Assembly (NCBI GenBank): GCA_025363015.1
Contig: JANYEQ010000022.1
Span: 1 to 39,384, forward strand
Direction: 5' to 3'
From: Bacteroidota bacterium
GTDB lineage: Bacteria; Bacteroidota; Bacteroidia; B-17B0; Aurantibacillaceae
DNA length: 39,384 bases
Shown: one piece after another, positions 1 through 39,169 of the stretch
Position numbering within the stretch: the stretch's first letter is position 1
Layout of the letters: the number at the start of each line of letters is the position of its first letter
Notes under the pieces: generated by a model
Databases searched by the model: none
What the model saw: only the letters and a program-made list of their open reading frames with translations
What the model was told of the DNA's origin: nothing
Made by a program: the position numbers and the translations under genes

Positions 1-41
1 GGCAAGTTATTCAATAGGTTATTGTTTTAAAAAATTAAAAA

Positions 42-668
42 ATGAGCAAAAAAAAATACAAACTTATAGTAATACTTCTTATTAGTAGCAAGGTATTACT
101 TAGCCAAGGCAAGGATACAACTATTTTTAAAGACTATTATATTAGTGCTAATTTTGTATCGAGGTTAGCCGAAGTGTGGGATATAGGGATTGAACGCATA
201 AAACCCTTAAAAAAAAATATGTATTATGCCTCTCAGTTTTCGGTTAGGTTAAATAAATATGCTTTTGGTGCAGTTTCAAATTCTTTTCATAATCCTGCTT
301 ATTATGGTTTTGTAATTCAACCTTTTCATTTATTAATTGGCAAATCTTTAAAATACGAAGTTGGTGCCGCCGCCGCATTTACTTTTTATAGATACAAAGG
401 CAGGCAATACCCGATAGCAGAAGACACTGCTAAAGGTGCTAGCAATACATTTTATTTTATTCACGATTTTGTGATACTTTGTTTTACAAATGGCTTACGA
501 TATACATTCAAAAAATCTCAAATTTCTATTAAAGTAATTTTTGGGTTAAGAGCAATAATTAATTTACAAAAAAACGACCCTGTTTACTTAAATTATAGAA
601 CTGGCAGTGGCGAAATAGGTATTAACTGGCGTATTCGCAAAAAAAAATATAGTTCTATTAGGCATTAA
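42..668 (+). CDS. Hypothetical secreted, probable outer-membrane protein
   Basis: I do not recognise a named family. The 208-residue product starts with Lys residues and a hydrophobic stretch (about residues 8-20) ending in LLSQ|GK, which fits a Sec signal peptide with the SQ-type cleavage site common in Bacteroidota. The rest alternates short polar and aromatic/hydrophobic segments (for example the Tyr/Phe-rich part around residues 60-160), as expected for a small outer-membrane beta-barrel, and it ends in a basic tail. The ATG at 42 follows an A-rich leader, normal for this phylum. It stands alone upstream of carB, 257 bp away, and nothing ties the two functionally. Short hairpins (12-24 and 671-683) flank it. 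A barrel protein is my inference; a periplasmic protein is the alternative. Confidence 0.6.
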   Translation: MSKKKYKLIVILLISSKVLLSQGKDTTIFKDYYISANFVSRLAEVWDIGIERIKPLKKNMYYASQFSVRLNKYAFGAVSNSFHNPAYYGFVIQPFHLLIGKSLKYEVGAAAAFTFYRYKGRQYPIAEDTAKGASNTFYFIHDFVILCFTNGLRYTFKKSQISIKVIFGLRAIINLQKNDPVYLNYRTGSGEIGINWRIRKKKYSSIRH

Positions 669-670
669 AA

Positions 671-683
671 CAATAGCTTATTG
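671..683. terminator. Short hairpin after the first gene, possible weak terminator
   Basis: CAATA-GCT-TATTG forms a 5-bp stem with a 3-base loop directly after the stop codon. A near-identical hairpin (CAATA-GGT-TATTG followed by TTTT) lies at 12-24, upstream of the same gene. The stems are short and A/T-rich, so terminator function is uncertain. Confidence 0.3.
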
Positions 684-839
684 ATAAACCCAAATTAAGA
701 TTTAAAACACCTTATTTTTTACTACCCTACTGTTCCTATTAAAAAAATAATTAAGCAGTAAATTTTTAATAACTCGTCAATATCTTTTTTATTAAGAAAC
801 AACTCTCTTAGCCTATCTTTACCAAGTTTGTTTTTTTCC

Positions 840-847
840 TAAGTTTG
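840..847 (+). promoter_or_regulatory. Candidate -7 box for carB
   Basis: TAAGTTTG matches the Bacteroidota -7 consensus TAnnTTTG exactly and lies 79 bp before the carB start. No TTG stands at the expected -33 spacing, so the call rests on the -7 box alone. The region 847-917 between box and gene is a run of AAGTT units followed by AACTT units that could fold on itself. Confidence 0.3.
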
Positions 848-925
848 GAAAGTTAGTAAGTTAAAAAGTTGTAAGTTCAGCTTTATAACTTTCATAGCTT
901 TCAAACTTTTATAACTAAAAAAAAT

Positions 926-3736
926 ATGAAAGATATATCTATAAAATCGGTTTTAATTATTGGCTCTGGTCCTATTGTTATTGGGCAGGCATGCGAATTT
1001 GATTACTCTGGCTCACAAGCCGCTAAAAGTTTAAGAGAGGAAGGGATTGAGGTGACTTTAATAAACTCTAATCCCGCCACTATTATGACGGATAAAGTAA
1101 CCGCCGATAATATTTATTTATTGCCTTTGGAAGTAAAATCCATCATAAAAATTTTAGAAGAGCGGCAAATAGATGCTGTGCTGCCTACCATGGGCGGACA
1201 AACAGCTTTGAACCTAGCCTTAAAGTGCGACGATTTAGGTATTTGGAAAAAGTATAACGTGCGGATGATTGGCGTAGATATTGATGCCATAAAAGTAACC
1301 GAAGACCGCGATTTATTTCGTATTCGAATGAACGAAATTGACGTGGCTATGGCGCCAAGCAAAATTGCAAAAAGTTTTTTAGAAGGCAAAAGCGTAGCAC
1401 AGGAATTTGGTTTTCCATTAGTAATTCGCCCTTCGTTTACCCTTGGCGGAAGCGGCGGAAGCGTTGTTTATGAAAAAGAAAACTTTGATGCCTTGTTAAA
1501 CCGTGGTTTACAAACATCGCCCATTCACGAAGTATTAATTGATAAAGCCGTTTTAGGCTGGAAAGAATACGAGCTAGAATTACTACGCGATAATAACGAT
1601 AACGTAGCCATTATTTGTTCGATAGAAAATTTTGACCCCATGGGCGTGCATACAGGAGACAGTATTACCGTTGCTCCAGCCATGACCTTGAGCGATAAAA
1701 CTTATCAAAAAATGCGTACTATGGCCATTAAAATGATGCGTAGTATTGGTAATTTTGCAGGAGGCTGTAACGTACAATTTGCAGTGAGTGATGATGATAA
1801 AGAAGATATTATTGCTATTGAAATTAATCCACGTGTATCTCGCTCATCAGCCTTGGCAAGTAAAGCCACGGGCTACCCTATTGCGCGTATTGCCAGCAAA
1901 TTAGCCATAGGTTACCAGCTAGATGAATTAATTAATCAAATTACAAAATCAACATCTGCTTATTTTGAGCCGACTTTAGATTATGTCATCGTAAAAATAC
2001 CACGTTGGAATTTTGATAAATTTAAGGGTTGTAACCGCGAATTAGGTTTTCAAATGAAATCGGTTGGTGAGGTTATGGGCATTGGGCGCTGCTTTCAAGA
2101 AGCCTTGCAAAAAGCTTGTCAAAGTTTAGAAATAAAACGTAATGGTTTAGGTGCCGATGGCAAAGAAATTACTGATCAAGCAGAATTATTAAGAGCCTTA
2201 GAGCGCCCAAGCTGGAACCGTTTATTTATGATTTACGATGCCCTAAAAATGGGCATCTCTATAAAAACCATTCAAAAATTAACACGTATTGATATGTGGT
2301 TTTTAAATCAAATAGAAGAATTAATTGCTCTTGAGAATGAAATTTCAAAATATTCTTTAAATAACCTTAGCAAAGATTTATTATATGAAGCTAAACAAAA
2401 AGGCTATGCCGACAGACAAATAGCGCATTTATTAAAGTGTTTAGAAAGTGAAGTATATAATAAACGAACAGATTTGGGTATTAAACGCGTTTACAAATTA
2501 GTAGATACTTGTGCTGCTGAATTTGAAGCAAAAACTCCATACTATTATTCAACCTTTGAAGATGAGAATGAAAGTATAAAAAGTGATAAAAAGAAAGTTG
2601 TTATTTTAGGAAGCGGGCCTAACCGAATTGGTCAAGGCATTGAGTTTGACTACAGTTGCGTGCACGGTGTATTAGCGGCTAAAGAAATGGGATATGAAAC
2701 TATTATGATTAATTGCAACCCCGAAACCGTTAGTACCGATTTTAGCACTGCCGATAAACTGTATTTTGAACCCGTTTTTTGGGAACATATTTACGATATT
2801 ATTTTACACGAACAGCCCGAGGGCGTTATAGTACAATTAGGCGGACAAACAGCTTTAAAGTTAGCTGAAAAGTTAGAAAAATACGGCATTAAAATTATTG
2901 GTACCGATTTTAAATCGTTAGACTTAGCGGAGGATAGAGGTGCTTTTTCTAATCTTTTAAAAAATAATAATATTCCTTATCCTAAATTTGGAGTGATTAA
3001 CGATGCTGAAGAAGCCATAACTTTATCAAAAGAATTAGGCTTTCCGTTATTGGTACGCCCAAGTTATGTATTGGGTGGACAAAGTATGAAAATTGTAATT
3101 AACGAGACTGAATTAGAACAGCATGTTGTAAAATTACTAAATGATTTGCCCGATAATAAAGTATTGTTAGACCATTTTTTACAAGGTGCAATTGAGGCTG
3201 AAGCCGATGCTATTTGTGATGGCAAAGATGTGTATATTATTGGGATGATGGAACATATTGAGCCTGCAGGCATTCATAGTGGCGATAGTTATGCCGTATT
3301 ACCCACGTTTGATTTAAGCGATGATGTATTAAGACAAATGGAAGAACACACTAAAAAAATTGCCGTAGCTTTAAAAACTGTTGGCTTATTAAATATACAA
3401 TTTGCAATTAAAGATGGTGTGGTGTATATTATTGAGGCAAACCCTCGTGCCTCACGCACTGTGCCATTTATAGCAAAAGCCTACGATGAACCGTATGTAA
3501 ACTATGCAACAAAAGTAATGTTGGGTGCAAAAATAAAAGATTTTAATTTTAAGCCTAAAAAGAAAGGGTATGCCATTAAAGTACCCGTATTTAGCTACGA
3601 AAAATTTCCAGAAATACAAAAAGAATTAGGCCCCGAAATGAAAAGCACAGGCGAAGCCATTTATTTTATTGATAGTTTACAAGACGAGTACTTTCAAAAT
3701 ATTTACAGCGAGCGTAATTTGTATTTGAGCAAGTAA
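926..3736 (+). CDS. carB: Carbamoyl-phosphate synthase large subunit, short form without MGS domain
   Basis: This subunit makes carbamoyl phosphate from bicarbonate, ammonia and two ATP for pyrimidine and arginine synthesis, working with the glutaminase subunit CarA, which is not in the window. The 936-residue protein has the expected duplicated architecture: first ATP-grasp half with FPLVIRPSFTLGGSGG near residue 165, the oligomerisation region around 410-540, and a second half opening with VVILGSGPNRIGQGIEFDY and containing FPLLVRPSYVLGGQSM near 705. It stops close to residue 936, where the allosteric MGS-like domain begins in the roughly 1073-residue E. coli enzyme. As I recall, other Bacteroidota also carry this short form. 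The last 34 codons are repeated at 6739-6844. The next gene is convergent, 11 bp away, so no room remains for a terminator. Confidence 0.97.
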   Translation: MKDISIKSVLIIGSGPIVIGQACEFDYSGSQAAKSLREEGIEVTLINSNPATIMTDKVTADNIYLLPLEVKSIIKILEERQIDAVLPTMGGQTALNLALKCDDLGIWKKYNVRMIGVDIDAIKVTEDRDLFRIRMNEIDVAMAPSKIAKSFLEGKSVAQEFGFPLVIRPSFTLGGSGGSVVYEKENFDALLNRGLQTSPIHEVLIDKAVLGWKEYELELLRDNNDNVAIICSIENFDPMGVHTGDSITVAPAMTLSDKTYQKMRTMAIKMMRSIGNFAGGCNVQFAVSDDDKEDIIAIEINPRVSRSSALASKATGYPIARIASKLAIGYQLDELINQITKSTSAYFEPTLDYVIVKIPRWNFDKFKGCNRELGFQMKSVGEVMGIGRCFQEALQKACQSLEIKRNGLGADGKEITDQAELLRALERPSWNRLFMIYDALKMGISIKTIQKLTRIDMWFLNQIEELIALENEISKYSLNNLSKDLLYEAKQKGYADRQIAHLLKCLESEVYNKRTDLGIKRVYKLVDTCAAEFEAKTPYYYSTFEDENESIKSDKKKVVILGSGPNRIGQGIEFDYSCVHGVLAAKEMGYETIMINCNPETVSTDFSTADKLYFEPVFWEHIYDIILHEQPEGVIVQLGGQTALKLAEKLEKYGIKIIGTDFKSLDLAEDRGAFSNLLKNNNIPYPKFGVINDAEEAITLSKELGFPLLVRPSYVLGGQSMKIVINETELEQHVVKLLNDLPDNKVLLDHFLQGAIEAEADAICDGKDVYIIGMMEHIEPAGIHSGDSYAVLPTFDLSDDVLRQMEEHTKKIAVALKTVGLLNIQFAIKDGVVYIIEANPRASRTVPFIAKAYDEPYVNYATKVMLGAKIKDFNFKPKKKGYAIKVPVFSYEKFPEIQKELGPEMKSTGEAIYFIDSLQDEYFQNIYSERNLYLSK

Positions 3737-3737
3737 G
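3632..3737 (+). repeat. 106-bp direct repeat, copy 1 (carB 3' end)
   Basis: This stretch, from CCCGAAATG to the carB stop codon plus one base (TAAG), recurs at 6739-6844 in the same orientation with 105 of 106 identical positions. The single difference, C at 3691 against T at 6798, is synonymous (TAC/TAT). Copy 1 is the functional end of carB. Confidence 0.97.
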
Positions 3738-3747
3738 CTTATCTGTA

Positions 3748-6525
3748 TCAATATTTTTTAATTATTTTAAAACTTCTTTTTGTACCGTTATACAATTCAA
3801 GGCATAAAAAATATATTCCTTCGCAAACATTTGAAATGTCTATATTAATTCTTGTAACGTTATTATTGTTGAAATTTTCTGAAAGCATTGCTTTACCCAA
3901 AATATCATTTAGTTTATAAAATTTAATGGGCTGTTTTGCATCTACGGTAAATATTTTTTGTGTTGGATTAGGAAACAATAACATCTCGGGTATTGCCTTA
4001 ATACTGTCTAAATATCTACAAGAAAATATGATGATGTTAGTGGTGTCAAAATAATTACCAAGTCTATTTAAAACACATCTATATTGGTATATACTCATGT
4101 CTGACAAATTTTTTGAAATTTGTAATTGAGAAGAGTTAGCTCCTGCAATACCGTTGCCATTATTTATATTTTGAAAAAAATCATTGTTCGTATTAATTTG
4201 CCATTGGTAGCTTAGTGCATTTGAAACGTTTACTTTTATGGTGGCTTGATTACCATAGCAACTATCAATAAACGAATTCATATTTGCCAAAGCAGGTAAA
4301 TCAATAGATTTAAGCCAACCTCCCATATTGCTATAAAACACAAATATTTTGTTACTGTTTACAGCGCCGTTAAATACATTAATGGGAAATTTGCTAACAA
4401 AATCGTTTCCAACCTTTTGCCACACATTATTTTTTAAATAAAATAAACTTAATTTACTTGTATCGTTTTGGTTAGTTCCAAAATAAAATGGGTTGCCAAG
4501 GCTGTCAAAAAATAAGTTTCGTGCATTGAAATCATTAGCATCAGCTCTGTTAAAATTAAACGTAGTCCCAACATTTACCCAGTTTTTAGAATTGAATTTT
4601 TGTAATTGGTAATAACCCGAACTATTTAAGTTTTTTGTAACATAAACTTCATTTTGAGATTTTTCAATTTCAAAATCATAAAAATTATAATGATAGTCGG
4701 TTATACTTTCGTTTACTGTGTTAAAATTATTTCCGTCAAATTTTGATATTCCAAAATTGTTTAAATTAATATTGTTTCCATAGTATAAAATAGTATTAAG
4801 AATATTATTAGTGTCAAAAGCAAATTTTTTTTGCTTTTGAATGGCGTAGTATGAAGAACTTAAATACCAATTACTGATACTGCTTGTTATAATTTGCCAA
4901 TTATTGTTTTTGTATTGGTAAATGTTTAAATCATTAGTAACGCCATTAATTGTTTGAAAATAATAGTTATTATTTTTATCAATTATTAATTGGGGTTTAT
5001 TTTGAAACCAGTTTGATTTAAAATTTATGTTTCCTAACCTTGTCCAAACATTATTTTCATATTTTTTTATAATTACGTTTTCAGAATCGCACACATTAGC
5101 ATAGGCAATTAAAGGATTGTTATTATTATCTAGTTCGAATTGATAATAATAAGACGAACCTGCCAAATTATTATTATTCAGTGCTGGAAAATCAATTAAA
5201 GTATTTGCAGTTATGTTTTTTATTTTTATGCTATCAAAATCTATTGACTTGGTATACGCCAAAATCATATTATTATTTTTATCAAACTTAATATCCGTTT
5301 GATAAGTTGGTGATTCTGTTATTCCTATATCATACTTTGATATAGGTTGCCATTTGGTAGTTGTGTTATTGCTAAAAAGTGGGGTAAATTGTTGATATAA
5401 TGAACTGTTATTAAGATATAATATTGCGGCATTTTGCTTTTTATTTAAAGAAAAATTGTTTTTATAGTTTATATTAGAATATAAAGTATTACCAACATTT
5501 TTCTTTATTGTAAAATTATTTGTCCACTTTACAAAGTTTAAATGTTGGTAATCGCTACAATTGTTTTGAATAGGATATTCTAATCTGTAAGGAATTATAT
5601 TATTTACTGTATCAAACACAAACTTCAAATTACTACTTAAGGTTACTGGCTGGGTTGATATTGTATTATTAATAATACTTGGGCAGGCAAAAACGGAAGA
5701 AAGGCTGGCAGAAGAAAAACTACAAAGTTGATAGGTTTTATTACTATCTAAATAACATACATATGGCTTATAGTAATTGTTTGAATTTAACGCAACATAA
5801 CTATTGCTTTTTAAACTGTTGGTTAATTGCCAGCTTGTACCATTGTATATGTAAATATTTAATTTTGTGTTTAAACTTGTAGTTAAAACCGAACCCACAA
5901 TTATATTTGAGGCAGAGTCAATTGTAAAATCAAAGTAATCATCAGCATTTTGGTCTACATAGTAAAATGATGTATTTGAAATAGATGCTGCAAATTTTGT
6001 CTGCCCAACTGTTTGCCAGCTTGCACTGTTGAATTTTTTTATGGTAAGTTTAAGCGAATCTGTTGTATTAGTATAGAGTACAAAAGGCACATTGTTTTTA
6101 TCAAATTTTAGTTTAAAAAAATTGCTAGAATTTCCATAAAAAGCGGTTGTAGTAAATGTTGGTAAGCTAGTCCACATGGCGCCTGTATAAGTAAAAATTT
6201 GATAATTTTGGCTCGATTGAAGGGCGAGGCAAGGGCTTTCGTTTCTATCTAAAACCAACTGTACATTTTGTCCATAATAAAAATTACTGATTGGACTCCA
6301 TCGATTATTAATATATTTTAAAACTCTATAGTTTTGGCCATACCAATAATAACTTAAAGCATAAAACTGTCCAGTGTTTGATTGAAGAATAGAAACAATA
6401 TTACTTGCTCGTTTATTTAGATTAACTATGTTGCTACTGTCTTGGCTAGGACCAATATATGTCCAAACCTTTTGTGACTTAACCGATAAGGTTAATAAAA
6501 TTAAGACTATAAATATTTTATTCAC
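3748..6525 (-). CDS. Large secreted T9SS surface protein, Asn-rich
   Basis: The 925-residue product has a signal peptide (MNKIFIVLILLTLSVKSQ) and a C-terminal T9SS type A sorting domain over about the last 75 residues: PNPTQKIFTV, a hydrophobic strand ending in LNDILGK, then VCEGIYFLCLE and a final KRSFKIIKKY. It should therefore be exported through the type IX pathway and attached to the cell surface or released. The body contains many repeats of the type 'FDKNNNPIIAY...W..VG', suggesting a beta-propeller-like fold, with a short Ig-like segment (SYQWQIN near residue 780) before the sorting domain. It is unusually rich in Asn, Tyr and Ser. The start is a GTG at 6525 directly after an in-frame TAG. 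The gene sits between two copies of the carB tail, opposite to carB, suggesting recent acquisition. Ligand and function are unknown. Confidence 0.85.
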   Translation of the reverse strand: MNKIFIVLILLTLSVKSQKVWTYIGPSQDSSNIVNLNKRASNIVSILQSNTGQFYALSYYWYGQNYRVLKYINNRWSPISNFYYGQNVQLVLDRNESPCLALQSSQNYQIFTYTGAMWTSLPTFTTTAFYGNSSNFFKLKFDKNNVPFVLYTNTTDSLKLTIKKFNSASWQTVGQTKFAASISNTSFYYVDQNADDYFDFTIDSASNIIVGSVLTTSLNTKLNIYIYNGTSWQLTNSLKSNSYVALNSNNYYKPYVCYLDSNKTYQLCSFSSASLSSVFACPSIINNTISTQPVTLSSNLKFVFDTVNNIIPYRLEYPIQNNCSDYQHLNFVKWTNNFTIKKNVGNTLYSNINYKNNFSLNKKQNAAILYLNNSSLYQQFTPLFSNNTTTKWQPISKYDIGITESPTYQTDIKFDKNNNMILAYTKSIDFDSIKIKNITANTLIDFPALNNNNLAGSSYYYQFELDNNNNPLIAYANVCDSENVIIKKYENNVWTRLGNINFKSNWFQNKPQLIIDKNNNYYFQTINGVTNDLNIYQYKNNNWQIITSSISNWYLSSSYYAIQKQKKFAFDTNNILNTILYYGNNINLNNFGISKFDGNNFNTVNESITDYHYNFYDFEIEKSQNEVYVTKNLNSSGYYQLQKFNSKNWVNVGTTFNFNRADANDFNARNLFFDSLGNPFYFGTNQNDTSKLSLFYLKNNVWQKVGNDFVSKFPINVFNGAVNSNKIFVFYSNMGGWLKSIDLPALANMNSFIDSCYGNQATIKVNVSNALSYQWQINTNNDFFQNINNGNGIAGANSSQLQISKNLSDMSIYQYRCVLNRLGNYFDTTNIIIFSCRYLDSIKAIPEMLLFPNPTQKIFTVDAKQPIKFYKLNDILGKAMLSENFNNNNVTRINIDISNVCEGIYFLCLELYNGTKRSFKIIKKY

Positions 6526-6738
6526 CTACTGAATTTTTATTTAAAACGGCATGTAGTATATTTGATACAAATATATAAAAAAATTCACAAAAATATTTTT
6601 ATCGTAACGAAATAAATTTTGCGTAGATACTAAATTAAAGGAGAATCATTTTAAGTTTGTTATGCGATTAATAGTTTACTTTTAAATAATCTTTAATTTG
6701 AAATTGTTTAATTATAGTTAAATATTATTAATTTAAAA
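6526..6738. other. A/T-rich intergenic stretch upstream of the T9SS gene
   Basis: No gene is seen here. Together with the second carB-tail copy (6739-6844) it fills the 322 bp between the T9SS gene and the ligase gene. It contains an 8-bp inverted repeat, TATATTTG-ATA-CAAATATA (6557-6575), each arm of which is a -7 box on one strand, and otherwise low-complexity A/T sequence without codon structure. Confidence 0.6.
6568..6575 (-). promoter_or_regulatory. Candidate -7 box for the T9SS gene
   Basis: Read on the minus strand this is TATATTTG, an exact TAnnTTTG match about 43 bp upstream of the GTG start at 6525. A TTG lies upstream, but at only 12 bp rather than about 19-20 bp, so the -33 element is not convincing. 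Confidence 0.4.
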
Positions 6739-6844
6739 CCCGAAATGAAAAGCACAGGCGAAGCCATTTATTTTATTGATAGTTTACAAGACGAGTATTT
6801 TCAAAATATTTACAGCGAGCGTAATTTGTATTTGAGCAAGTAAG
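6739..6844 (+). pseudogene. Detached second copy of the carB 3' end (repeat copy 2)
   Basis: The 106 bp encode the last 34 residues of CarB and its stop codon, identical to 3632-3737 except for a synonymous T at 6798. No start codon or promoter would produce it as a protein. It lies 3 bp from the convergent ligase gene. This is probably where carB ended before a 3107-bp unit was inserted; alternatively the fragment arrived with the unit. Confidence 0.93.
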
Positions 6845-6847
6845 GGT

Positions 6848-9553
6848 TTAAGCCAGCTTAGTATTCTTTTCTAATCGCTTTTTTCCAAACTCTAAAATAT
6901 TATCAATAAACTGATACGGCTTGTAATTATTTATAGCCGCTTGATGAAAGATGCAGGTGGCAGGTGTCATTCCCGGTAAGGAATTCACTTCAATAAAAAT
7001 AACTTCAGTTTTACAATTATCGTAAATACGTACAAAGGCATCAATACGACAATAGCCACTAACACCCAACGCCTTTGCCGCTTCTCCTAGTGTTTGTTTA
7101 ACTTGATTACTAACCGTTTGCCTATCTGCACTATTTGTTGCATAACGTGCGGGCGTTATGTTTTGGCCCTGTCCTGCTAAAAATTTTTCTTCTAAACTTA
7201 AAATATCCCCGTCTGCAAGCGCTTCACTGGCTTCAAATACTTCGTAATCTAAATCACCGCTTTTATTAAATTTAGTAAGCATGCCACCCGTTACTTCTAA
7301 AAAATGTTTAGCGTTTTTTTTACTAATTAATTCCTCTACCAATATTACCTGCTTTTGCGGAAACTCTTCTTTTGCTTTCATGTGCAATATGTTTGCGGCA
7401 GTTGCATCTAATTCTTCCGACGTTCTAAACATCAGTTTACAAAAAGCTTCAAACTCTACAAAGGTTTTTATTTTTTTTACAGCGCTGCTACAACCATCAT
7501 CAACAGGCTTAGCAATAAAAGGATAGCTAATTTTTGTTTTTATGTTTTCTTCGATTTCAGCTTTCTTGTTTTCCCAATCATTTTTAGTTACTAAAAAATG
7601 CTCGGCAACTAAAAAACCGTTTTGTTTTAAAATTTCGTTGGTACGGTATTTATCAATTGTAATACTCGAACTCTCTTTACTACTGCCATTGTATGGCAAA
7701 TTTAATTCATCTAATTTTTGTTGAATAGCTCCGTCCTCGCCCGGGCGACCATGCAGGGCAATAAATACCTCATCGGCCTTTTGTTTTAAATCATTATATG
7801 ATAATTGAATTGGTTTTGTAATCGTATTTGCTAATGCATATTTGTGTGTAATACTTTCGCATTGTTGTATAATTTTTTGTATAACGGCATGCAGCTTGTA
7901 ATATTCCACCTTTTCTTTTATGTCATCTGCATTATCTTTTAATAAAAGGTTTATGGGGATGTGATACATTTTGTGTTCCTCATTAGTACCCGTTAAAAAA
8001 ATAGGAAATGGGGCATATTTTTCACTCGAAGCTAATTTTTCAAATACGTTTCTACCACTTTCTACCGAAATATGACGTTCGCTAGAATAACCACCCAACA
8101 CCACTGCAACACGGGTTTTGTGAGTTGTAGCGTGTTTATCTTTTAAAATTAATTCGTCTAAATTGCTTAATAATTTTTTATAGGTAACATTGCCTTTGGC
8201 TTGTATAATACGTTTAGCAAGAGACGTACGAATAATAAAACTTAAAAACTGCGAGGGGTTTAAGCCAATTTCGGCCGCCTGATGAAAGAAAAACGACGAG
8301 GGCATCATACCACTAGTTGTATTTGGATCGTTTAAAAATAGTTTGCCATTGGTACTCAAAAACCCGTCAATACGAGCATACACGTCAAAATGCAATTCGT
8401 AAAATAATTTTTCGCACTCTTTTCTTATGGCTTCTATTTGTTCGTCGGGTAAATCAATCGGTGTAATTTTTCGGGATAAACCTGGTAAATATTTACTGCG
8501 GTAATCAAACAATTCTTTTCCTTTTTTAATTTCGGTGGGTGGTAAAGCAATAGCAGTGCCGTTTTCGTCTTCTAATACAATACAGCTAAATTCTTTTCCT
8601 TCAATAAATCCTTCTACTAACACTTTACTTTCACCATCTAAAGCTTCTAAAATAAACCCATCTGTTTTTAAATTTAAATCTAAAAATTCTATTAATACCG
8701 TTGGATCGTAAATTACTGGTGCATTTAATTCTTTTGGATGTGTAATGGCAACAGGCATTCCAATGCCATCGCGGATATCAGAAAGTGTTTTAACATAATT
8801 TATTTTGTCTTCTGCTGAAAGATCTTGCCACTCTTTAGCATCTACCCAACGGGTAAAAAATGCTTTTTCAACGGCACGCATATACTCCTGTTCATTATCA
8901 TTATTTAAAATACTTATACCTATGCTACTGCCTTGATTGGCAGGTTTTACCACGCAAGGAAATCCAATGGTTTCTTTTATGGTTTTAAGTACGTTATTTG
9001 CCTTTCCCTCAATATAATCTTGCCTGTTAATAGTTATGTATTTGGGGCTATTAAAGCCTTTGTTTATCATTAATTCTTTTTGTACACTTTTATCAATACC
9101 AATGGCAGAAGCTAAAATTCCTGAACCACTATAGGGAATTTGATTATACTCAAACACGCCTTGTATTCTACCATCTTCACCATTAGGGCCGTGTAGACAT
9201 AAAAATGCAAAATCAATTTTTTTAGCTAAATCACTAATCGCTAGTTTTTTTCCAATTTTAAAAATTAAATCGTTTTGTTGTTGCTCGTTTAAGTTTCCTA
9301 ATTGCTCAGCATAAAGCTGAAAGTGTGAATTGGCAGGTAAAAACTCCACGGGCGGATAAAAATCGCGAATGGTGCCTTTATAAACAAACTCCCAATTCAA
9401 TTCAATAAAATTACCAAAACTATCCACAAAAATGGGAATAGCTTCAAACAGGGCTTTGTTTAAATTATCGTAAACGGTTCGCCCACCAGCAAACGATATT
9501 TCGCGCTCTTTACTTTGTCCACCAAAAACAATACCAATTTTTAATTTAGTCAT
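6848..9553 (-). CDS. ddl: Tandem (fused) D-alanine-D-alanine ligase
   Basis: D-Ala-D-Ala ligase joins two D-alanines for the peptidoglycan stem peptide in the cytoplasm. The usual enzyme has about 300-370 residues; this one has 901 and consists of two complete Ddl-type ATP-grasp modules. Module 1 (about 1-470) has GGQSKEREIS, HGPNGEDG (near 122), GSSIGIS (near 205), FDYRSKY (near 350), ARID (near 392) and DPNTTSGM (near 410) where EVNxLPGM is usual. Module 2 (about 478-901) has GGYSSERHIS, HGRPGEDG (near 602), GCSSAV (near 688) in place of GSSxGx, no DYxxKY match, but canonical RID (near 835) and EVNSLPGM (near 857). The modules thus deviate at different places. Whether both are active is open. 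It is convergent with carB's ancestral end. Confidence 0.9.
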   Translation of the reverse strand: MTKLKIGIVFGGQSKEREISFAGGRTVYDNLNKALFEAIPIFVDSFGNFIELNWEFVYKGTIRDFYPPVEFLPANSHFQLYAEQLGNLNEQQQNDLIFKIGKKLAISDLAKKIDFAFLCLHGPNGEDGRIQGVFEYNQIPYSGSGILASAIGIDKSVQKELMINKGFNSPKYITINRQDYIEGKANNVLKTIKETIGFPCVVKPANQGSSIGISILNNDNEQEYMRAVEKAFFTRWVDAKEWQDLSAEDKINYVKTLSDIRDGIGMPVAITHPKELNAPVIYDPTVLIEFLDLNLKTDGFILEALDGESKVLVEGFIEGKEFSCIVLEDENGTAIALPPTEIKKGKELFDYRSKYLPGLSRKITPIDLPDEQIEAIRKECEKLFYELHFDVYARIDGFLSTNGKLFLNDPNTTSGMMPSSFFFHQAAEIGLNPSQFLSFIIRTSLAKRIIQAKGNVTYKKLLSNLDELILKDKHATTHKTRVAVVLGGYSSERHISVESGRNVFEKLASSEKYAPFPIFLTGTNEEHKMYHIPINLLLKDNADDIKEKVEYYKLHAVIQKIIQQCESITHKYALANTITKPIQLSYNDLKQKADEVFIALHGRPGEDGAIQQKLDELNLPYNGSSKESSSITIDKYRTNEILKQNGFLVAEHFLVTKNDWENKKAEIEENIKTKISYPFIAKPVDDGCSSAVKKIKTFVEFEAFCKLMFRTSEELDATAANILHMKAKEEFPQKQVILVEELISKKNAKHFLEVTGGMLTKFNKSGDLDYEVFEASEALADGDILSLEEKFLAGQGQNITPARYATNSADRQTVSNQVKQTLGEAAKALGVSGYCRIDAFVRIYDNCKTEVIFIEVNSLPGMTPATCIFHQAAINNYKPYQFIDNILEFGKKRLEKNTKLA

Positions 9554-9671
9554 AGCCTAAATGTAAAAATAAAGCTTATTTAAACCACTTATAAAATTTG
9601 GAATTAATTAACATTGGTTTGTAAATAGAAAGGGTGAAATTATTAGTAATTTTATACTTTATTTAATCCTT

Positions 9672-10916
9672 ATGTTTTTTAGATTTTTAATTTTTTTTAT
9701 AATAATACTTCTTGTAGAGTTTTATTTTTTTCAAGCGGTAAAAACGTTTGTACAAGACTTTAGTGCTAGTAAAAAAGGCACTGTTTTATATGTTGCGTAT
9801 TTTTTAATTGGATTTAATGTATTAATAGGTTTAATATCGTTGTTTTACCCACCACCACAGTGGAATAATTTTTTTAGATTTATTTCTTCTGCTGCTTTAA
9901 TTTTACTTGTATGTAAACTACTTGGCTGTAGCTTTTTAATTATAGATGATGTTATCCGATTATTTAGATGGTTATTTTCTTTACTAAAAAGCACCCCTGC
10001 TGAAACTACCGAAACGATTCATAAAATTTCACGCTTAAAGTTTTTAAGTCAGTTAGCCATTACCTTCACAGTAGTGCCAGCTGTTGGCTTTTTGTATGGC
10101 ATGGTACGTGGTGCCTATAAATATAGGGTTCATAATGTTAAAGTTCCATCCTCAAAAATACCAAAAGAATTTAATGGCTTTAAAATTGTACAAATTAGTG
10201 ATATACACACTGGTTCGTTTTTAAATACCAATGCACTTGAAAAAGCCTTTGAAATTGTAATGCAGCAAAATGCCGATATTATTTTATTTACTGGCGATTT
10301 AGTAAATACTCAAACAGACGAGACGAATGGCTTTGAAAACGTTTATAATAAATTAAAGGCGCCTTATGGTGTGTATTCTGTTTTAGGAAACCACGATTAC
10401 GGTGACTACAGAGAGTGGGATAGCGCTGAAGAAAAACATAAAAATTTAGAAAATTTAAAAGCAGTTCAAAAAGCAAGTGGTTGGAAATTATTAATGAACG
10501 AACACGTTGCCTTAGAAAAAAATGGCGAAAAAATTGCATTATTAGGGATAGAAAATTGGGGCGGGAGTATGCGTTTTCCAAGATATGGAAAATTAGATGT
10601 AGCTTATAAAGGCGCAGAAGATTACCCATTTAAAATATTAATGAGCCACGACCCAAGCCACTGGGATGTGCAGGTTACAAAAGAGTATCCAACTATTGAT
10701 TTAACCTTAAGCGGACATACACATGGTATGCAGTTTGGTATTGAAATTCCTAACTTTAAATGGAGCCCTATACAATATTTATATAAAAACTGGGCTGGTT
10801 TATACAAACAAGGCGAACAGTTTTTGTACGTTAACAGAGGCTTAGGATTTTTAGGTTACCCCGGTAGATTAGGCATTTGGCCTGAAATTACAGTAATGGA
10901 ACTGCAAAAGGTATAG
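9672..10916 (+). CDS. Membrane-anchored metallophosphoesterase (YkuE/YaeI-like)
   Basis: A calcineurin-type phosphoesterase of 414 residues. The first 150 residues carry about four hydrophobic membrane segments (beginning MFFRFLIFFIIILLVEFYF), followed by a catalytic domain with all metal-binding signatures: QISDIHTG (near 174), TGDLVN (near 211), LGNHDYGD (near 238), SHDPSHWD (near 325) and SGHTHGMQFG (near 345). Related enzymes include the lipid pyrophosphatases of the LpxG/YkuE type, so a role in envelope lipid hydrolysis is possible but not shown. The ATG at 9672 opens directly on the first membrane segment. The gene diverges from the ligase gene and converges with the BamA-like gene 30 bp downstream. 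Confidence 0.88.
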   Translation: MFFRFLIFFIIILLVEFYFFQAVKTFVQDFSASKKGTVLYVAYFLIGFNVLIGLISLFYPPPQWNNFFRFISSAALILLVCKLLGCSFLIIDDVIRLFRWLFSLLKSTPAETTETIHKISRLKFLSQLAITFTVVPAVGFLYGMVRGAYKYRVHNVKVPSSKIPKEFNGFKIVQISDIHTGSFLNTNALEKAFEIVMQQNADIILFTGDLVNTQTDETNGFENVYNKLKAPYGVYSVLGNHDYGDYREWDSAEEKHKNLENLKAVQKASGWKLLMNEHVALEKNGEKIALLGIENWGGSMRFPRYGKLDVAYKGAEDYPFKILMSHDPSHWDVQVTKEYPTIDLTLSGHTHGMQFGIEIPNFKWSPIQYLYKNWAGLYKQGEQFLYVNRGLGFLGYPGRLGIWPEITVMELQKV

Positions 10917-10946
10917 GCTTGTATTTACAAAAGCACTGGGGGTAAT

Positions 10947-12371
10947 TTAAAATCCAACCGTAGCATGAATAAAAAAACCTGATTGTAATTGTTTGTTAAA
11001 ACTGTACTCTAAACGTAGCACCACATCATAATAGGTTATTAAATCAATACTAGCGCCATAACCACATTGCCAGCTATTTACATGTGTATTTGTTTTATAA
11101 AAAAATTTATCTTGTACATAACCTGCATCAAAAAATACATTTGCAAAAGCATAAAAAGGTATGGTATTAAACTGTTTAGCGTGGGTTAAATATTTTGGTT
11201 TAAATACTTTAGGTTTTATAATTTGATAGCGCAAACTATTTTTAGATAAAAAATAGTTTTGGCCTTCTATTACAAAATATTCGTAACCTCTTATTAAATC
11301 ATTATAACCAAGTGCTCTATTAAAATTATACGAAAGTTTGTCACTATTCATATAACGCGCTTTCATCAAATTAGCACTATAAAACCTATTTTTTAACGGT
11401 GTGTGCTTTCTAATATTTACACCAACGTATAAATTGTTTATGGGCGAATTATCTTCATAATTAAATCCGTCTTTTACTATTTGTCCTTCAAAAGCCCAAC
11501 CTTTTAGTGGGTACGATTTATTATCTCTGTTATCAAACGTATAACGGTATTGTAAACTTAAATATTGGATGCATAGTTTGGCATCATTAAAATAATTTGG
11601 ATTAAGTTTAGCAACCGTATCGCCAATGCTAACATTTTTATATACTAATTCGGCAGTAGTTTGTTCATATAAATTTGGGCGATAAATTATACCTGCTTTT
11701 GCTTCATGCTCGGTTCGTAAATAATTTTTGTAGCTACGTACAAATTGTGGCGCATTGTTTTGTGTAATAAAATTTACTTCGTTATTTCTATTAAAAACAT
11801 ACAGTAAATTATAACCTATTGTTTGGGTTTTGTTTACGTAAGGGGTGCGATAACTAAAGCCATACTTTTCAGAGTACCCCCGTTGAACCAATAAAATTAA
11901 CCTATCCTTTACTCCCGTAAAATTTTCGAGGGCTAATGCAAAACCATAATTTAATCTAAAAAAATCTTTTGTTCTCCACCAGGTATTAAAGTTACGGTCT
12001 TGAACCTCAATTACGGGAGTAGGAAAAACATACCAGCGCTCTTTTACAACAATGGTTAAATTAATTGTTTTTAGTGTATCATTTATGGTTGGATAAATTG
12101 TGTCATAAATAAAAAGCTGAGTATTAAAAATATTTTGTTCGCTACGTCTTTTAACGTAATTAATAGTGTTTAGGCGTAAGGTGTCATTTTGTTTTATTAC
12201 TAATTCGCGCGTAATAATTCTATCTTTTGTTTTTTTGTTTCCATTAATGGTAATGCTTTTAATAGTATAGATGCTATTACTATCAAGCGTTTGAGCAGAA
12301 ATAAATTTAATGCTAAAAAATAAAATAAAAAATAAACGTAGTTTAGATATTGAGAAAGTGTAAAAACTCAT
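10947..12371 (-). CDS. BamA/TamA-like outer-membrane protein (Omp85 family)
   Basis: The 474-residue protein has a signal peptide (LRLFFILFFSIKFISAQ), one recognisable POTRA-like domain (SITINGNKKTKDRIITREL, about residues 38-115) and a C-terminal barrel of the bacterial surface antigen type, with YRYTFDNRDNKSYPLKGW near 280 and a final strand ending in Phe (FIHATVGF), typical of outer-membrane proteins. Omp85 proteins insert or translocate proteins or lipids across the outer membrane. BamA itself normally has about five POTRA domains and is much longer, so this is more likely an accessory Omp85 member. The start codon lies inside the end of the upstream CBS gene, overlapping it by 29 bp in another frame, so the two genes are probably transcribed and translated together. 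Confidence 0.85.
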   Translation of the reverse strand: MSFYTFSISKLRLFFILFFSIKFISAQTLDSNSIYTIKSITINGNKKTKDRIITRELVIKQNDTLRLNTINYVKRRSEQNIFNTQLFIYDTIYPTINDTLKTINLTIVVKERWYVFPTPVIEVQDRNFNTWWRTKDFFRLNYGFALALENFTGVKDRLILLVQRGYSEKYGFSYRTPYVNKTQTIGYNLLYVFNRNNEVNFITQNNAPQFVRSYKNYLRTEHEAKAGIIYRPNLYEQTTAELVYKNVSIGDTVAKLNPNYFNDAKLCIQYLSLQYRYTFDNRDNKSYPLKGWAFEGQIVKDGFNYEDNSPINNLYVGVNIRKHTPLKNRFYSANLMKARYMNSDKLSYNFNRALGYNDLIRGYEYFVIEGQNYFLSKNSLRYQIIKPKVFKPKYLTHAKQFNTIPFYAFANVFFDAGYVQDKFFYKTNTHVNSWQCGYGASIDLITYYDVVLRLEYSFNKQLQSGFFIHATVGF

Positions 12372-16172: not shown

Positions 16173-18728
16173 TTGATAAAACACCCATATAGTAAAGTAG
16201 TTTTCTTCTTTGTAATGTTAATATCTTTAAACGTTACAAACTTATTTGGGCAAAGCACACCAATAGATACTTTAAAAAAAGTAACCGTTGATACCTTAAC
16301 AACAGATGATAATAGCGAAAGCCTTGAAGAGGCCATAAATTACAGTGCCCAAGATAGTGTAGTTTTTTTAGCGGTGGCAAAAAAAATATTTTTATACGGT
16401 AAAGCCAAGGTAAATTATACTACTATGAATATGGAAGCAGAGTTTATTGAAATAGATTATACTACCAACATTGTTAAAGCTTATGGCAAAAAAGATAGTT
16501 TGGGTAAACCCGAAGGAAGGCCAGATTTTAAAGATGGCGAACAGACGATGCGAGCAGATACTATTAAATATAATTTAAAATCTAAACGTGGTAAAATTTA
16601 TAATGCGTTTACACACCAAGGCGAGTTATTAGTTTTTGGAGAACAAATAAAAAAAGATAGCACCAACATTGTATATTTAAAAAACATGAAATGTTTGCCT
16701 TGCCAAGATGAAGATGCGCGCACAGCCTTTAGAGCCACAAAAGCAAAAATAATACCCAACGATAAAATTATAACAGGCCCCATGTATTTAGAAATTGGGG
16801 GGGTGCCCACACCTTTAGCCTTACCTTTTGGTTATTTTCCAAACACTAAAAAGCAACACAATGGTATTTTATTACCTACGTTTGGCAACTCGGCCTCGCA
16901 GGGTTTTAGTCTACGAAACGGTGGTTTTTATTGGGGTATAAATGATAAAACCGATATGATAATTAATGGCGATATTTATACAAATGGTAGTTATGCATTA
17001 CGCACTACTAATAATTATAACGTGCTTTACAAAAGTAACGGCAATGTAAATTTAGCCTTTAGTCAATTTAATATTGGCGATAAGGATATTCCAGCAACAT
17101 TTACAAAACAACAGTCGTATAGCGTTAAATGGATACACATTCAAGATAATAAAAATAACCCCACTATACGTTTTAGTGCCAATGTAAATTATGTAAAAAA
17201 CCAAGCTTTTAATAGGCTCACAACTATTAACTCCAATCAGTTTTTACAAAATAGTTTTAATTCAAATATTAATTTTACAAAAACATTTAAGCTAAGTGCA
17301 TTAAGTTTAAATGCCTCGCACAACCAAAGTGCTGTGGGTTTAAAACCTATAAGTTTTACATTTCCGCAATTAACCTACAATGTGAATCGTTTTTTTCCGT
17401 TTAAACGCGAAGATGCTGTAAAACAAAATGTATTTGATAAAATTGGTGTAAATTATTTATTTGAAGCGCGTAATACATTAAACGGATACGATTCTACCAT
17501 TTTTAAAGGAGACATTGAAAAACGAATGGCATATGGTATTAAGCACAGTTTACCAATATCTACAAATTTTAATTTAGCTAAATATATTACCGTAACTCCT
17601 GGCTTAAACTTAAATGCAGTTATGTACACAAAAAGTATTAGGCAGCAATTTGTAACCGATGTTACAACATATACTAGTAGTATAAAAACCGATACTATTA
17701 ATGGCTTTGTGGGTGGCTACGACGCCAACTTTACTACCTCGTTTAACACTAAGGTATTTTTTGATTATGTTTTTAAAAAAGGAAAAGTAAAACAAATTAG
17801 GCATTTACTAATTCCTACGCTTACTTACGCTTACCGCCCCGATTTTGGTAAAGAGCAATATGGCTTTTGGAAAAGTGTACAATCTAATACCATTGGGGGT
17901 ATTAACCGCTATTCTATTTTTCAGAATAATATTTTTGGTGGGCCAGGTATTGGCGCACAAAATGCACTTAGTTTAAACTTAAGTAATAATATTGAGGCTA
18001 AAATTCGTAAAAAAACCGATACTGGATTTGTATATAATAAAACTACCTTGCTTCAAAATATTAGCGCAACGGGTAGTTATAATTTTGCAGTAGATAGTTT
18101 TCAAATGCAAGTGGTAACCCTAAGCGCACGGACTGTTTTATTTAAAAATATTGATATTGTAGCAAGCGGTAACCTAGACCCATATGCTTATAGCAATATT
18201 ACTAAGCGACGTATAACAAGCTATCAATACTCACAAAATGCACAATTAGCACGTTTAACAGGTGCAAATTTTGTAGTAAATACAAGCATTAGTAGTGATA
18301 AAATTGCGGCAGCTAAAAAATTACGCGAAGCCCCCAACCAAAGTAATGGCGCTGAAAAAGGAACAAAAAATGATTTAGACCCAACCGCAAAACTACCGTG
18401 GAACATTGCTTTAAATTATAATTTAATGCTTATTAATAGTGATAATACAAAATTACAACCCACCCATTCTATTAATTGCCGAGCAGATATAATGCCTACA
18501 AAGTATTGGAAAGTAGGGGTTACAACAGGTTATGATTTTAACCGTCAAAATTTAAGTTACACAAGCGTTAATATTTATCGCGATTTAAAATGTTGGGAAA
18601 CACGGATAGATTGGGTGCCGTTTGGCTTTAATAAAGGCTATTATTTGACTATAAATTTAAAAAGCAGTGTGTTTAATACGCCATTTAATTACGGCAATCG
18701 AAATTTTATTAAAACAGCAGGGTTTTAA
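16173..18728 (+). CDS. lptD: LptD-like LPS-assembly outer-membrane protein
   Basis: LptD forms the outer-membrane pore that places lipopolysaccharide in the outer leaflet. The 851-residue product has a signal peptide (VVFFFVMLISLNVTNLFGQ), an OstA/LptA-like beta-jellyroll (about residues 55-200: DSVVFLAVAKKIFLYGKAKV, then TMRADTIKYNLKSKRGKI), a Cys pair (KCLPCQDED), the conserved PLALPFGYFPN near residue 215, and a long barrel of polar/aromatic strands ending in a terminal Phe. The start is a TTG; the first in-frame ATG would remove half of the signal peptide, and an in-frame TGA lies 28 bp upstream. The divergent amidase neighbour is, as I recall, a common arrangement in Bacteroidota. Confidence 0.88.
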   Translation: MIKHPYSKVVFFFVMLISLNVTNLFGQSTPIDTLKKVTVDTLTTDDNSESLEEAINYSAQDSVVFLAVAKKIFLYGKAKVNYTTMNMEAEFIEIDYTTNIVKAYGKKDSLGKPEGRPDFKDGEQTMRADTIKYNLKSKRGKIYNAFTHQGELLVFGEQIKKDSTNIVYLKNMKCLPCQDEDARTAFRATKAKIIPNDKIITGPMYLEIGGVPTPLALPFGYFPNTKKQHNGILLPTFGNSASQGFSLRNGGFYWGINDKTDMIINGDIYTNGSYALRTTNNYNVLYKSNGNVNLAFSQFNIGDKDIPATFTKQQSYSVKWIHIQDNKNNPTIRFSANVNYVKNQAFNRLTTINSNQFLQNSFNSNINFTKTFKLSALSLNASHNQSAVGLKPISFTFPQLTYNVNRFFPFKREDAVKQNVFDKIGVNYLFEARNTLNGYDSTIFKGDIEKRMAYGIKHSLPISTNFNLAKYITVTPGLNLNAVMYTKSIRQQFVTDVTTYTSSIKTDTINGFVGGYDANFTTSFNTKVFFDYVFKKGKVKQIRHLLIPTLTYAYRPDFGKEQYGFWKSVQSNTIGGINRYSIFQNNIFGGPGIGAQNALSLNLSNNIEAKIRKKTDTGFVYNKTTLLQNISATGSYNFAVDSFQMQVVTLSARTVLFKNIDIVASGNLDPYAYSNITKRRITSYQYSQNAQLARLTGANFVVNTSISSDKIAAAKKLREAPNQSNGAEKGTKNDLDPTAKLPWNIALNYNLMLINSDNTKLQPTHSINCRADIMPTKYWKVGVTTGYDFNRQNLSYTSVNIYRDLKCWETRIDWVPFGFNKGYYLTINLKSSVFNTPFNYGNRNFIKTAGF

Positions 18729-38623: not shown

Positions 38624-39169
38624 ATGTTAGTTAAAAACATACAAAGCAAAATACACGAAATCCGTAACCAAAAAGTTATGTTGGATTTTGATTTGGCGCA
38701 ATTGTATGAGGTAGAAACACGAGTTTTAAATCAGTCGGTAAAACGTAATATTGATAGATTTCCTATAGATTTTATGTTTCAGTTAACAAAAAAAGAATGG
38801 GATGCCTTGTTATCACAAATTGTGATATCAAAAGGTAATTTAAATATGTCATCACAATTTGTGATGACATCACCTAGCAAAAGACCATTAACATCATTAC
38901 CTTATGCTTTTACCGAACAGGGTGTTGCTATGCTATCTTCAGTTCTTAAAAGTAAAAAAGCAGTACAAGTAAATATATCTATTATGCGTGCTTTTGTTGT
39001 AATGAAACAATATATTGTTGATTATGCAGAGCTATTTAAAAAAATTCAAGATATTGAAACAAAATACAATAAGCAATTTGCCGATGTATACGATGCATTA
39101 AATTATTTAATGGGTATTAAAAAAGAAGAAGTACAGAAAAAAAGAATTAAAATTGGATATAAAAAATAA
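38624..39169 (+). CDS. ORF6N-domain DNA-binding protein
   Basis: The N-terminal 100 residues match the ORF6N domain: IRNQKVMLDFDLAQLYEVETRVLNQSVKRN, RFPIDFMFQLTKKEW and YAFTEQGVAMLSSVLKSKKAV. The remainder is helical (IMRAFVVMKQYIVDY, a short coiled coil around IQDIETKYNKQF) and ends with Lys-rich residues; 181 residues in total. ORF6N is found in phage antirepressors and in many Bacteroidota chromosomal genes of unknown function, often near mobile DNA. Here it begins 4 bp after nuoF, apparently transcribed with the nuo operon. The gene contains two related palindromes (38811-38827 and 38846-38870) in the segment coding SQIVIS ... SQFVMTS. Confidence 0.88.
   Translation: MLVKNIQSKIHEIRNQKVMLDFDLAQLYEVETRVLNQSVKRNIDRFPIDFMFQLTKKEWDALLSQIVISKGNLNMSSQFVMTSPSKRPLTSLPYAFTEQGVAMLSSVLKSKKAVQVNISIMRAFVVMKQYIVDYAELFKKIQDIETKYNKQFADVYDALNYLMGIKKEEVQKKRIKIGYKK
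38811..38827. repeat. 17-bp palindrome inside the ORF6N gene (first)
   Basis: TATCACAA-A-TTGTGATA: 8-bp arms around one central base. Its inner 15 bases are the exact reverse complement of the inner 15 bases of the second palindrome at 38846-38870. Confidence 0.8.
38846..38870. repeat. 25-bp palindrome inside the ORF6N gene (second)
   Basis: Arms ATGTCATCACAA and TTGTGATGACAT, 12 bp each, flank one central T. It is complementary to the first palindrome, so the two could also pair with each other. It looks like a repressor-type operator but lies in coding sequence. Confidence 0.8.

Follow-up and report, generated by a model that had tools for sequence, protein, structure and literature searches.

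A duplicated end of carB brackets an accessory T9SS surface-protein gene in a Bacteroidota genome

Genomic islands, integrative and conjugative elements (ICEs) and integrative and mobilizable elements (IMEs) can sit at the 3' ends of genes with attL and attR sites, and in Campbell-type insertion-duplication a circle carrying a gene fragment enters by a single crossover. Short variable segments were described in Escherichia coli, Staphylococcus aureus and Streptococcus pyogenes, 10-18% of them flanked by direct repeats that are mostly <30 bp, and naturally transformable bacteria, namely Streptococcus pneumoniae, Acinetobacter and Pseudomonas stutzeri, are known to integrate incoming DNA illegitimately with the help of homology on one side (both PMC2884548). 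Here, we analyze a stretch of 39,384 nucleotides (the window), contig JANYEQ010000022.1 of assembly GCA_025363015.1 from a Bacteroidota bacterium of the Aurantibacillaceae, in which a gene encoding a surface protein with a type IX secretion system (T9SS) sorting domain stands between carB and a second copy of the end of carB. This arrangement is a true, recent and unusually long duplication scar around an accessory gene, of a known kind, and the repeat is better seen as the scar or by-product of a single event than as the attachment (att) site of a self-moving element.

The assembly (G000) comprises 3.33 Mb in 143 contigs, one of which, in full, is the window. The first-pass annotation, made from the window alone, had reported that the last 106 bp of carB recur downstream in direct orientation with a single synonymous difference, and this was borne out. 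The two copies (Table 1) share 105 of 106 bases at a spacing of 3107 bp (self-BLAST, E = 4e-49), and the carB tail has exactly two matches in the 3.33-Mb assembly at E <= 0.001; the second-ranked direct repeat of the window measures 51 nt with 73% identity. The lone mismatch, C in copy 1 and T in copy 2, lies at position 3691, the third base of a Tyr codon, and is synonymous. Since CarB (936 aa) can be aligned with its relatives through its last residue, copy 1 is the genuine end of carB. Copy 2 is non-coding, as first proposed, and overlaps no open reading frame (ORF) of at least 60 aa in a set of non-overlapping ORFs. A single reverse-strand gene for a secreted protein indeed lies between the copies, with 11 bases from its stop codon to that of carB. 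Computed removal of the 3107-bp unit leaves the CarB protein unaltered, in agreement with the earlier statement that recombination between the repeats would keep carB intact, and a reversible switching of gene content would be possible. The same removal would bring carB close to the convergent ligase gene downstream, as had been noted, with the two stop codons 4 bases apart instead of the about 3 bp first given.

The end of the ligase gene together with copy 2 was used as a query against 39 relatives of the same genus, with 17 candidates scored per genome. The tail part was matched in 34 of them, once in each, and in none of these 34 did a match unite the carB tail with the ligase gene; the match in G054 extends 15 bases beyond the tail, the ligase match of this genome being on a different contig. 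No tail match was obtained in this search from G001, G004, G020, G022, and G056, and carB was found otherwise in G001 and G020. We also read 20 carB loci of relatives (8-19.5 kb), in 19 of which the tail could be compared: relatives keep 77 to 91 of its 106 bases, i.e., 15-29 differences. As the two copies of the window differ at 1 of 106 bases where the relatives differ at 15-29, and as a second tail was found in none of the 34 relatives with a tail match, the duplication seems, within this set of genomes, to be both private and recent. Of the two options first offered for the near-identity of the copies, a recent event or upkeep by conversion, the former is supported and gene conversion is unnecessary. 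The case that had been named as fatal to the whole idea, in which all relatives would have both the gene and a second tail, is not what we found, the gene being present in 2 of 87 genomes and a second tail in none of the 34. The base of copy 2, T, is also that of 18 of 19 relatives at the differing site. Judged from this one site only, the C inside the working carB is probably the derived base, and such a distribution fits copy 1 as the newcomer, although a single site is weak evidence. The locus omitted from the tail comparison (L070 5906-7993, contig C177 of G002) has a carB match that breaks near residue 680 into two overlapping parts read in different frames, which indicates either a frameshift or a sequencing error.

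The product of the enclosed gene ends in a type A T9SS sorting domain (PF18962, Por_Secre_tail, E 5e-9, above the cut-off), and its N-terminus is hydrophobic and signal-like as judged by eye. A scan with NCBIfam returned no family at 0.001, and no relative of solved structure was found at E 0.01. An AlphaFold model was set aside as unusable, with a mean predicted local distance difference test score (pLDDT) of 33. The gene is accessory: it occurs in 2 of 87 genomes of the family, its own included (E up to 1e-15, with at most 10 candidates scored in each genome). The GTDB contigs, scanned possibly without its own genome, gave as sole record the groundwater metagenome-assembled genome G015. No second copy was found in the window's genome, where the other matches are to the C-terminal domain only. 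The GC content of the gene is 27.5%, the lowest in its class: a PNP motif close to the C-terminus served to select 68 further T9SS-like ORFs from this genome, and these average 35.5 +/- 2.2% GC without any reaching so low a value. Genome-wide, the T9SS sorting domain gave 131 matches at E <= 0.01 in 3.3 Mb.

The homologue in G015, which is another species, shares 34% identity with the surface protein, and its gene has 30% GC, compared with 41% GC in accA and efp, between which it sits. The genus gave 37 accA matches, of which 30 were taken as loci. Leaving out that of G015, 29 loci remain, and in 27 of them, G000 included, accA and efp are neighbours, two of these loci running out inside efp at a contig end. 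The exceptions are L241, which stops 258 bp past accA and has no efp match, and L260, which has none either. Judged from gene order, the G015 locus is a clear single-gene insertion, and no flanking repeat was found at its edges. This homologue, the only one found, does not stand beside a carB tail, contrary to the arrangement that the first-pass annotation had proposed to look for in other genomes. Since the G015 insert lacks a repeat, the duplicated neighbour end would not be part of the cargo of the gene, and this is the main argument against att sites.

Table 1. Positions of the features discussed, counted from the first base of the window.
Feature	Position	Strand	Remarks
carB, carbamoyl-phosphate synthase large subunit, intact	926..3736	+	936 aa; alignment with relatives
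Repeat copy 1	3632..3737	+	final 105 carB bases (including the stop codon) plus one base; rarer C at 3691
Added unit as read in the first-pass annotation, 3107 bp	3738..6844		equivalent: 3632-6738; from repeat spacing
Repeat copy 2, carB tail without reading frame	6739..6844	+	adjoins the ligase stop codon; T at the differing site
AT-rich gene for a secreted protein	3748..6525	-	925 aa; Por_Secre_tail at residues 850-916
Stretch 5' of the surface-protein gene, 213 bp	6526..6738		17% GC
Protein with two D-Ala-D-Ala ligase modules	6848..9553	-	901 aa
Metallophosphoesterase gene	9672..10916	+	
Protein without Pfam or NCBIfam match	42..668	+	208 aa

The explanation that we favor, tentatively and at a little less than even confidence, is a recent one-off insertion of the accessory T9SS surface-protein gene directly 3' of carB. 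The incoming DNA would have carried the surface gene beside a carB tail, coming for example from another strain with this gene after carB or from a derived circle, and the donor would have shared carB with the resident chromosome and nothing beyond. Joining to the chromosome would have used the carB homology on one side only, while the other end was sealed nonhomologously at a point 106 bp farther upstream within the tail of the resident carB; entry of the whole unit by a single crossover of a circle would be an equivalent route. The outcome would be an intact carB, a new gene, and a leftover second carB tail against the ligase gene. We infer the donor, the one-sided joining, and the order carB-ligase before the insertion. 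Among species, the sequence 3' of carB varies from the stop codon onward (19 of 20 loci, by eye), and the repeat ends one base past the carB stop, where the relatives diverge (likewise 19 of 20 loci). Because the 3' neighbours of carB are species-specific, a donor sharing only carB would yield a repeat ending at the stop, as seen. The restriction of the tail to two copies here and to one in each of the 34 matched relatives also counts for an insertion, as do the rarity of the gene, its AT-richness, and the fact that the G015 homologue is an AT-rich insert too.

Several observations weigh against this insertion. The non-T9SS stretches yielded 225 ORFs with 250 aa or more (mean 32.9% GC), and 8.4% of these are as low in GC as the surface gene, which is therefore not extreme for the genome as a whole; composition does not establish its foreign origin. 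The ComEC-like protein encoded in the genome says little in favor of the insertion, ComEC being found in 10 of 14 control genomes too. The 87 family genomes yielded no donor in which the surface gene follows carB, the G015 copy not being at carB, and the genomes compared include no other strain of the species and none with the site before insertion. Moreover, carB and the ligase gene are not neighbours in any relative where both were placed, which makes their order before the insertion an assumption, and an adjacency that is itself new argues against the plain case of a unit entering a pre-existing junction. Finally, a homology anchor, a template switch, and a circle are indistinguishable by sequence alone.

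The carB-ligase neighbourhood was followed in the 20 carB loci and in 15 ligase loci of relatives (11-19 kb), and in none of them are the two genes close together. Both genes could be placed in 34 relatives; they are on separate contigs in 33 of these and about 2.2 Mb apart in G001, a single contig, the contigs of some relatives being short enough that fragmented assemblies could conceal an adjacency in a few. The empty carB-ddl site that had been predicted in relatives was thus not found. As the genes are separate in all relatives where both were placed, the adjacency is, from these gene orders, read as a novelty of the window's lineage. The gene order around carB and ddl is variable within the genus. 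A metallophosphoesterase gene adjoins the double ligase gene in 12 of the 15 ligase loci, as in the window. Upstream of carB, one small neighbour recurs in 15 of the 20 loci, its product being RRM-like as judged from sequence without a family search; it is not in the window, where an orphan gene for a 208-aa protein stands 5' of carB.

This neighbourhood is at the origin of a second explanation, unlikely but to be considered in earnest, in which the repeat is a templated filler. Accordingly worded, carB and the surface gene would be old neighbours, a rearrangement would have put the ligase gene beyond the surface gene, and template switching would have copied the 106-bp tail. The weight that we give to it comes from a carB-ligase neighbourhood that is itself new and from an empty site that is only inferred. 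A single event would cover both this neighbourhood, which is unique to the window's genome in a genus where the order near carB and ddl varies, and the repeat; however, the copying would have to stop by chance one base past the carB stop, where the similarity between species ends anyway, and the rarity of the gene would still demand a gain at some point. The same unseen order could come from an assembly artefact, with the second tail misjoined or two strains merged in a short-read or metagenome assembly, and the 143 contigs would suit this idea, but the copies are distinguishable by one base and both flanking genes are complete, and we consider an artefact very improbable.

A tandem duplication of a segment holding the surface gene and carB, followed by deletions of most of the second carB and of the first surface gene, is in our view improbable. 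It would generate a direct repeat of a gene end without any foreign donor, and tandem T9SS genes exist in these genomes. It would nevertheless take three steps. By BLAST, the 213 bp that precede the surface gene resemble nothing in the sequence 5' of carB, and instead of a second surface gene only C-terminal-domain matches were found in the genome.

The one-off insertion that we favor was also weighed against mobile elements. A Pfam scan of the window's 28 main ORFs detected no integrase or transposase, no search for an integrase having been made elsewhere in the genome, and the unit itself has no integrase, as the first-pass annotation had noted. Inverted repeats were not found at both ends of the unit; the inverted pairs that were found have 70-77% identity, and in one of them the arm adjoining copy 2, at 6698-6737, is AT-rich but its partner lies inside the gene at 4760-4799, not at the other end. 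A repeat of 106 bp far exceeds the usual length of a target-site duplication. A transposon or insertion sequence with such a duplication was rejected on these grounds, i.e., no transposase, no terminal inverted repeats, and a repeat that is too long. Folding of the carB tail was no better than that of shuffled sequences (z 0.15), and no dyad was detected. Scans for RNA families in positions 1-12000 (at gathering scores) and for terminators in 3500-7100 were negative.

The idea of an element integrating at the 3' end of carB and restoring it, put forward in the first-pass annotation, is not supported by these results. In its remaining form, a non-autonomous element with attL and attR at the carB 3' end and an integrase encoded elsewhere, it is the least probable of the explanations. 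The direct repeat does lie at the 3' end of a gene that stays intact, and exact excision is harmless to CarB in silico. Against this, a site-specific recombinase was not found in or near the unit among the 28 ORFs scanned, the tail has no dyad and only two copies in the genome, and no reuse of the site or repeat by other units was found, the 34 matched relatives having single tails and the homologue between accA and efp in G015 being free of repeats.

We surveyed other stretches for direct repeats with a minimum length of 30 bp and a minimum identity of 84%, 0.4-12 kb apart; the window itself had been selected for having a bracket. The T9SS set comprised 60 of 78 planned regions of G000 (428 kb, 77 of the 131 sorting-domain matches); the same-genome control comprised 20 stretches mostly away from T9SS genes (one T9SS match, 398.5 kb, longer contigs). 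From relatives, 36 stretches (612 kb) were taken, and from the single-contig genome G001, 20 stretches (400 kb). Two further brackets outside genes were found in the T9SS set. One (L152 2108-2163 / 6076-6130, i.e., 17711-17766 and 21679-21733 of contig C64) is a repeat of 56 bp with 93% identity and only two copies in the genome, enclosing a T9SS gene of 1040 aa, with a sub-threshold match to a CehA/McbA metallohydrolase, and a TPR-like gene of 210 aa. The other (L193 1-101 / 1596-1696, contig C47) has 101 bp at 99% identity, contains a GC-rich palindrome, with one copy at a contig end and genome-wide copies uncounted, and encloses a gene of 393 aa with a sub-threshold PDZ match. Its second copy is followed by what we take to be a remnant of a transposase associated with repetitive extragenic palindromes (REP), a place where Pfam gave no family. 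In L192 (1988-2280 / 6217-6510, contig C41), a repeat of 297 bp with 92% identity forms the ends of neighbouring, mutually homologous T9SS genes of 696 and 1240 aa, whose proteins are 37-55% identical where aligned; the shared end consists of the sorting domain and a terminator-like stretch, and on this comparison looks like conversion of ends or a shared sorting domain. Repeats in L131, L133, and L136 and two more in L152 were set aside as lying within or between genes.

In the 398.5 kb of the same-genome control, no bracket outside genes was found. This set contained L174 (5842-5940 / 7280-7377, contig C68), where the last 99 bases of tandem paralogous sensor-like genes are 94% identical for 32% overall, and a pair in L181, set aside as being inside one ORF. 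Among relatives, L080 (7325-7372 / 9190-9237, contig C172 of G002) has a terminator-like repeat of 48 bp with 96% identity, one copy being beside atpG, with two copies in the genome; it encloses a T9SS gene of 559 aa that is SBBP beta-propeller-like. L064 (G007) holds four pairs of 35-48 bp outside genes (85-95% identity), several of them also inverted, including one of 43 bp and 88% (3003-3045 / 6724-6766, contig C64) around ORFs of 969 and 144 aa; these pairs were set aside as dispersed, without a genome-wide count. Pairs in L060, L062, L070, L074, L078, and L083 were discarded as being inside genes. In G001, one pair, L226, of 45 bp and 84%, lies outside genes in one copy and surrounds a group of four genes that includes at least three T9SS-like ones; the other pairs of this genome, tandem paralogues and repeats inside proteins, were not retained.

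The numbers of this survey are small and its samples uneven, and we take it as a lead and make no claim of enrichment. Weaker look-alikes of 48-101 bp at three places (L152, L193, and L080), in this genome and one related genome, make a recurrent process possible, and this limited survey is the basis of that reading. Its specific form, a recurrent integrase-free dropping of single surface genes beside gene ends that sometimes leaves a copy of 50-100 bp of an end or terminator, is a long shot. If it were true, homologous recombination between such brackets could remove the cargo and leave the neighbouring gene undamaged.

Other features of the window were recorded in passing. CarB covers positions 4-925 of the 1058-position NCBIfam model and is without the usual C-terminal region, and the carB genes of relatives are similar in length. 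The double D-Ala-D-Ala ligase has two Ddl modules in one protein of 901 aa; of 24 other genomes searched, 18 gave a match to it at E <= 1e-100, nearly at full length in 16 and partially in 2. Homologues of the 208-aa protein were found in 3 of the 39 same-genus relatives and none in the 20 carB loci read, and neither this protein nor the surface protein had a PHROGs match. Near the contig end, after a block of NADH dehydrogenase genes, positions 38624-39169 encode an ORF6N-domain protein of 181 aa; this domain is common in regulators of phages or mobile elements.

Among the matches listed in the open-licence literature, none describes T9SS genes that stand between duplicated ends of a neighbouring gene, and PMC3784515, PMC8116780, and PMC4432121 gave no reason to alter our reading. 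If the carB repeat is only a scar, the locus is a clean snapshot of the entry of an accessory surface gene without a recognisable mobile element, and its interest is modest unless brackets prove recurrent. If they do recur at T9SS genes, this would point to a way in which Bacteroidota could enlarge and prune their extensive sets of secreted proteins.

Compared with the systems described so far, the carB locus resembles islands, ICEs, and IMEs in that the repeat equals a gene 3' end and the gene concerned stays whole, but it differs from them by the lack of an integrase in the window ORFs searched, of a second unit at the site, and of a repeat at the G015 insert. With Campbell-type insertion, it shares a homologous fragment that is doubled, once on each side of the insert, and a gene that survives intact in one copy; unlike it, the present case is natural, has a single cargo gene, and involves a putative circle or donor. 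The KLIKK proteases of Tannerella forsythia are similarly absent in a relative, but their shared end belongs to the cargo genes (PMC4404884), whereas that of the window belongs to an unrelated housekeeping gene. The segments of PMC2884548 are likewise strain-specific stretches between conserved genes with direct repeats at their edges and no mobile element. They measure 20-500 bp and most of their repeats are <30 bp, compared with a 3-kb gene unit and 106 bp here, and, unlike theirs, the repeat of the window is the coding end of the neighbouring gene.

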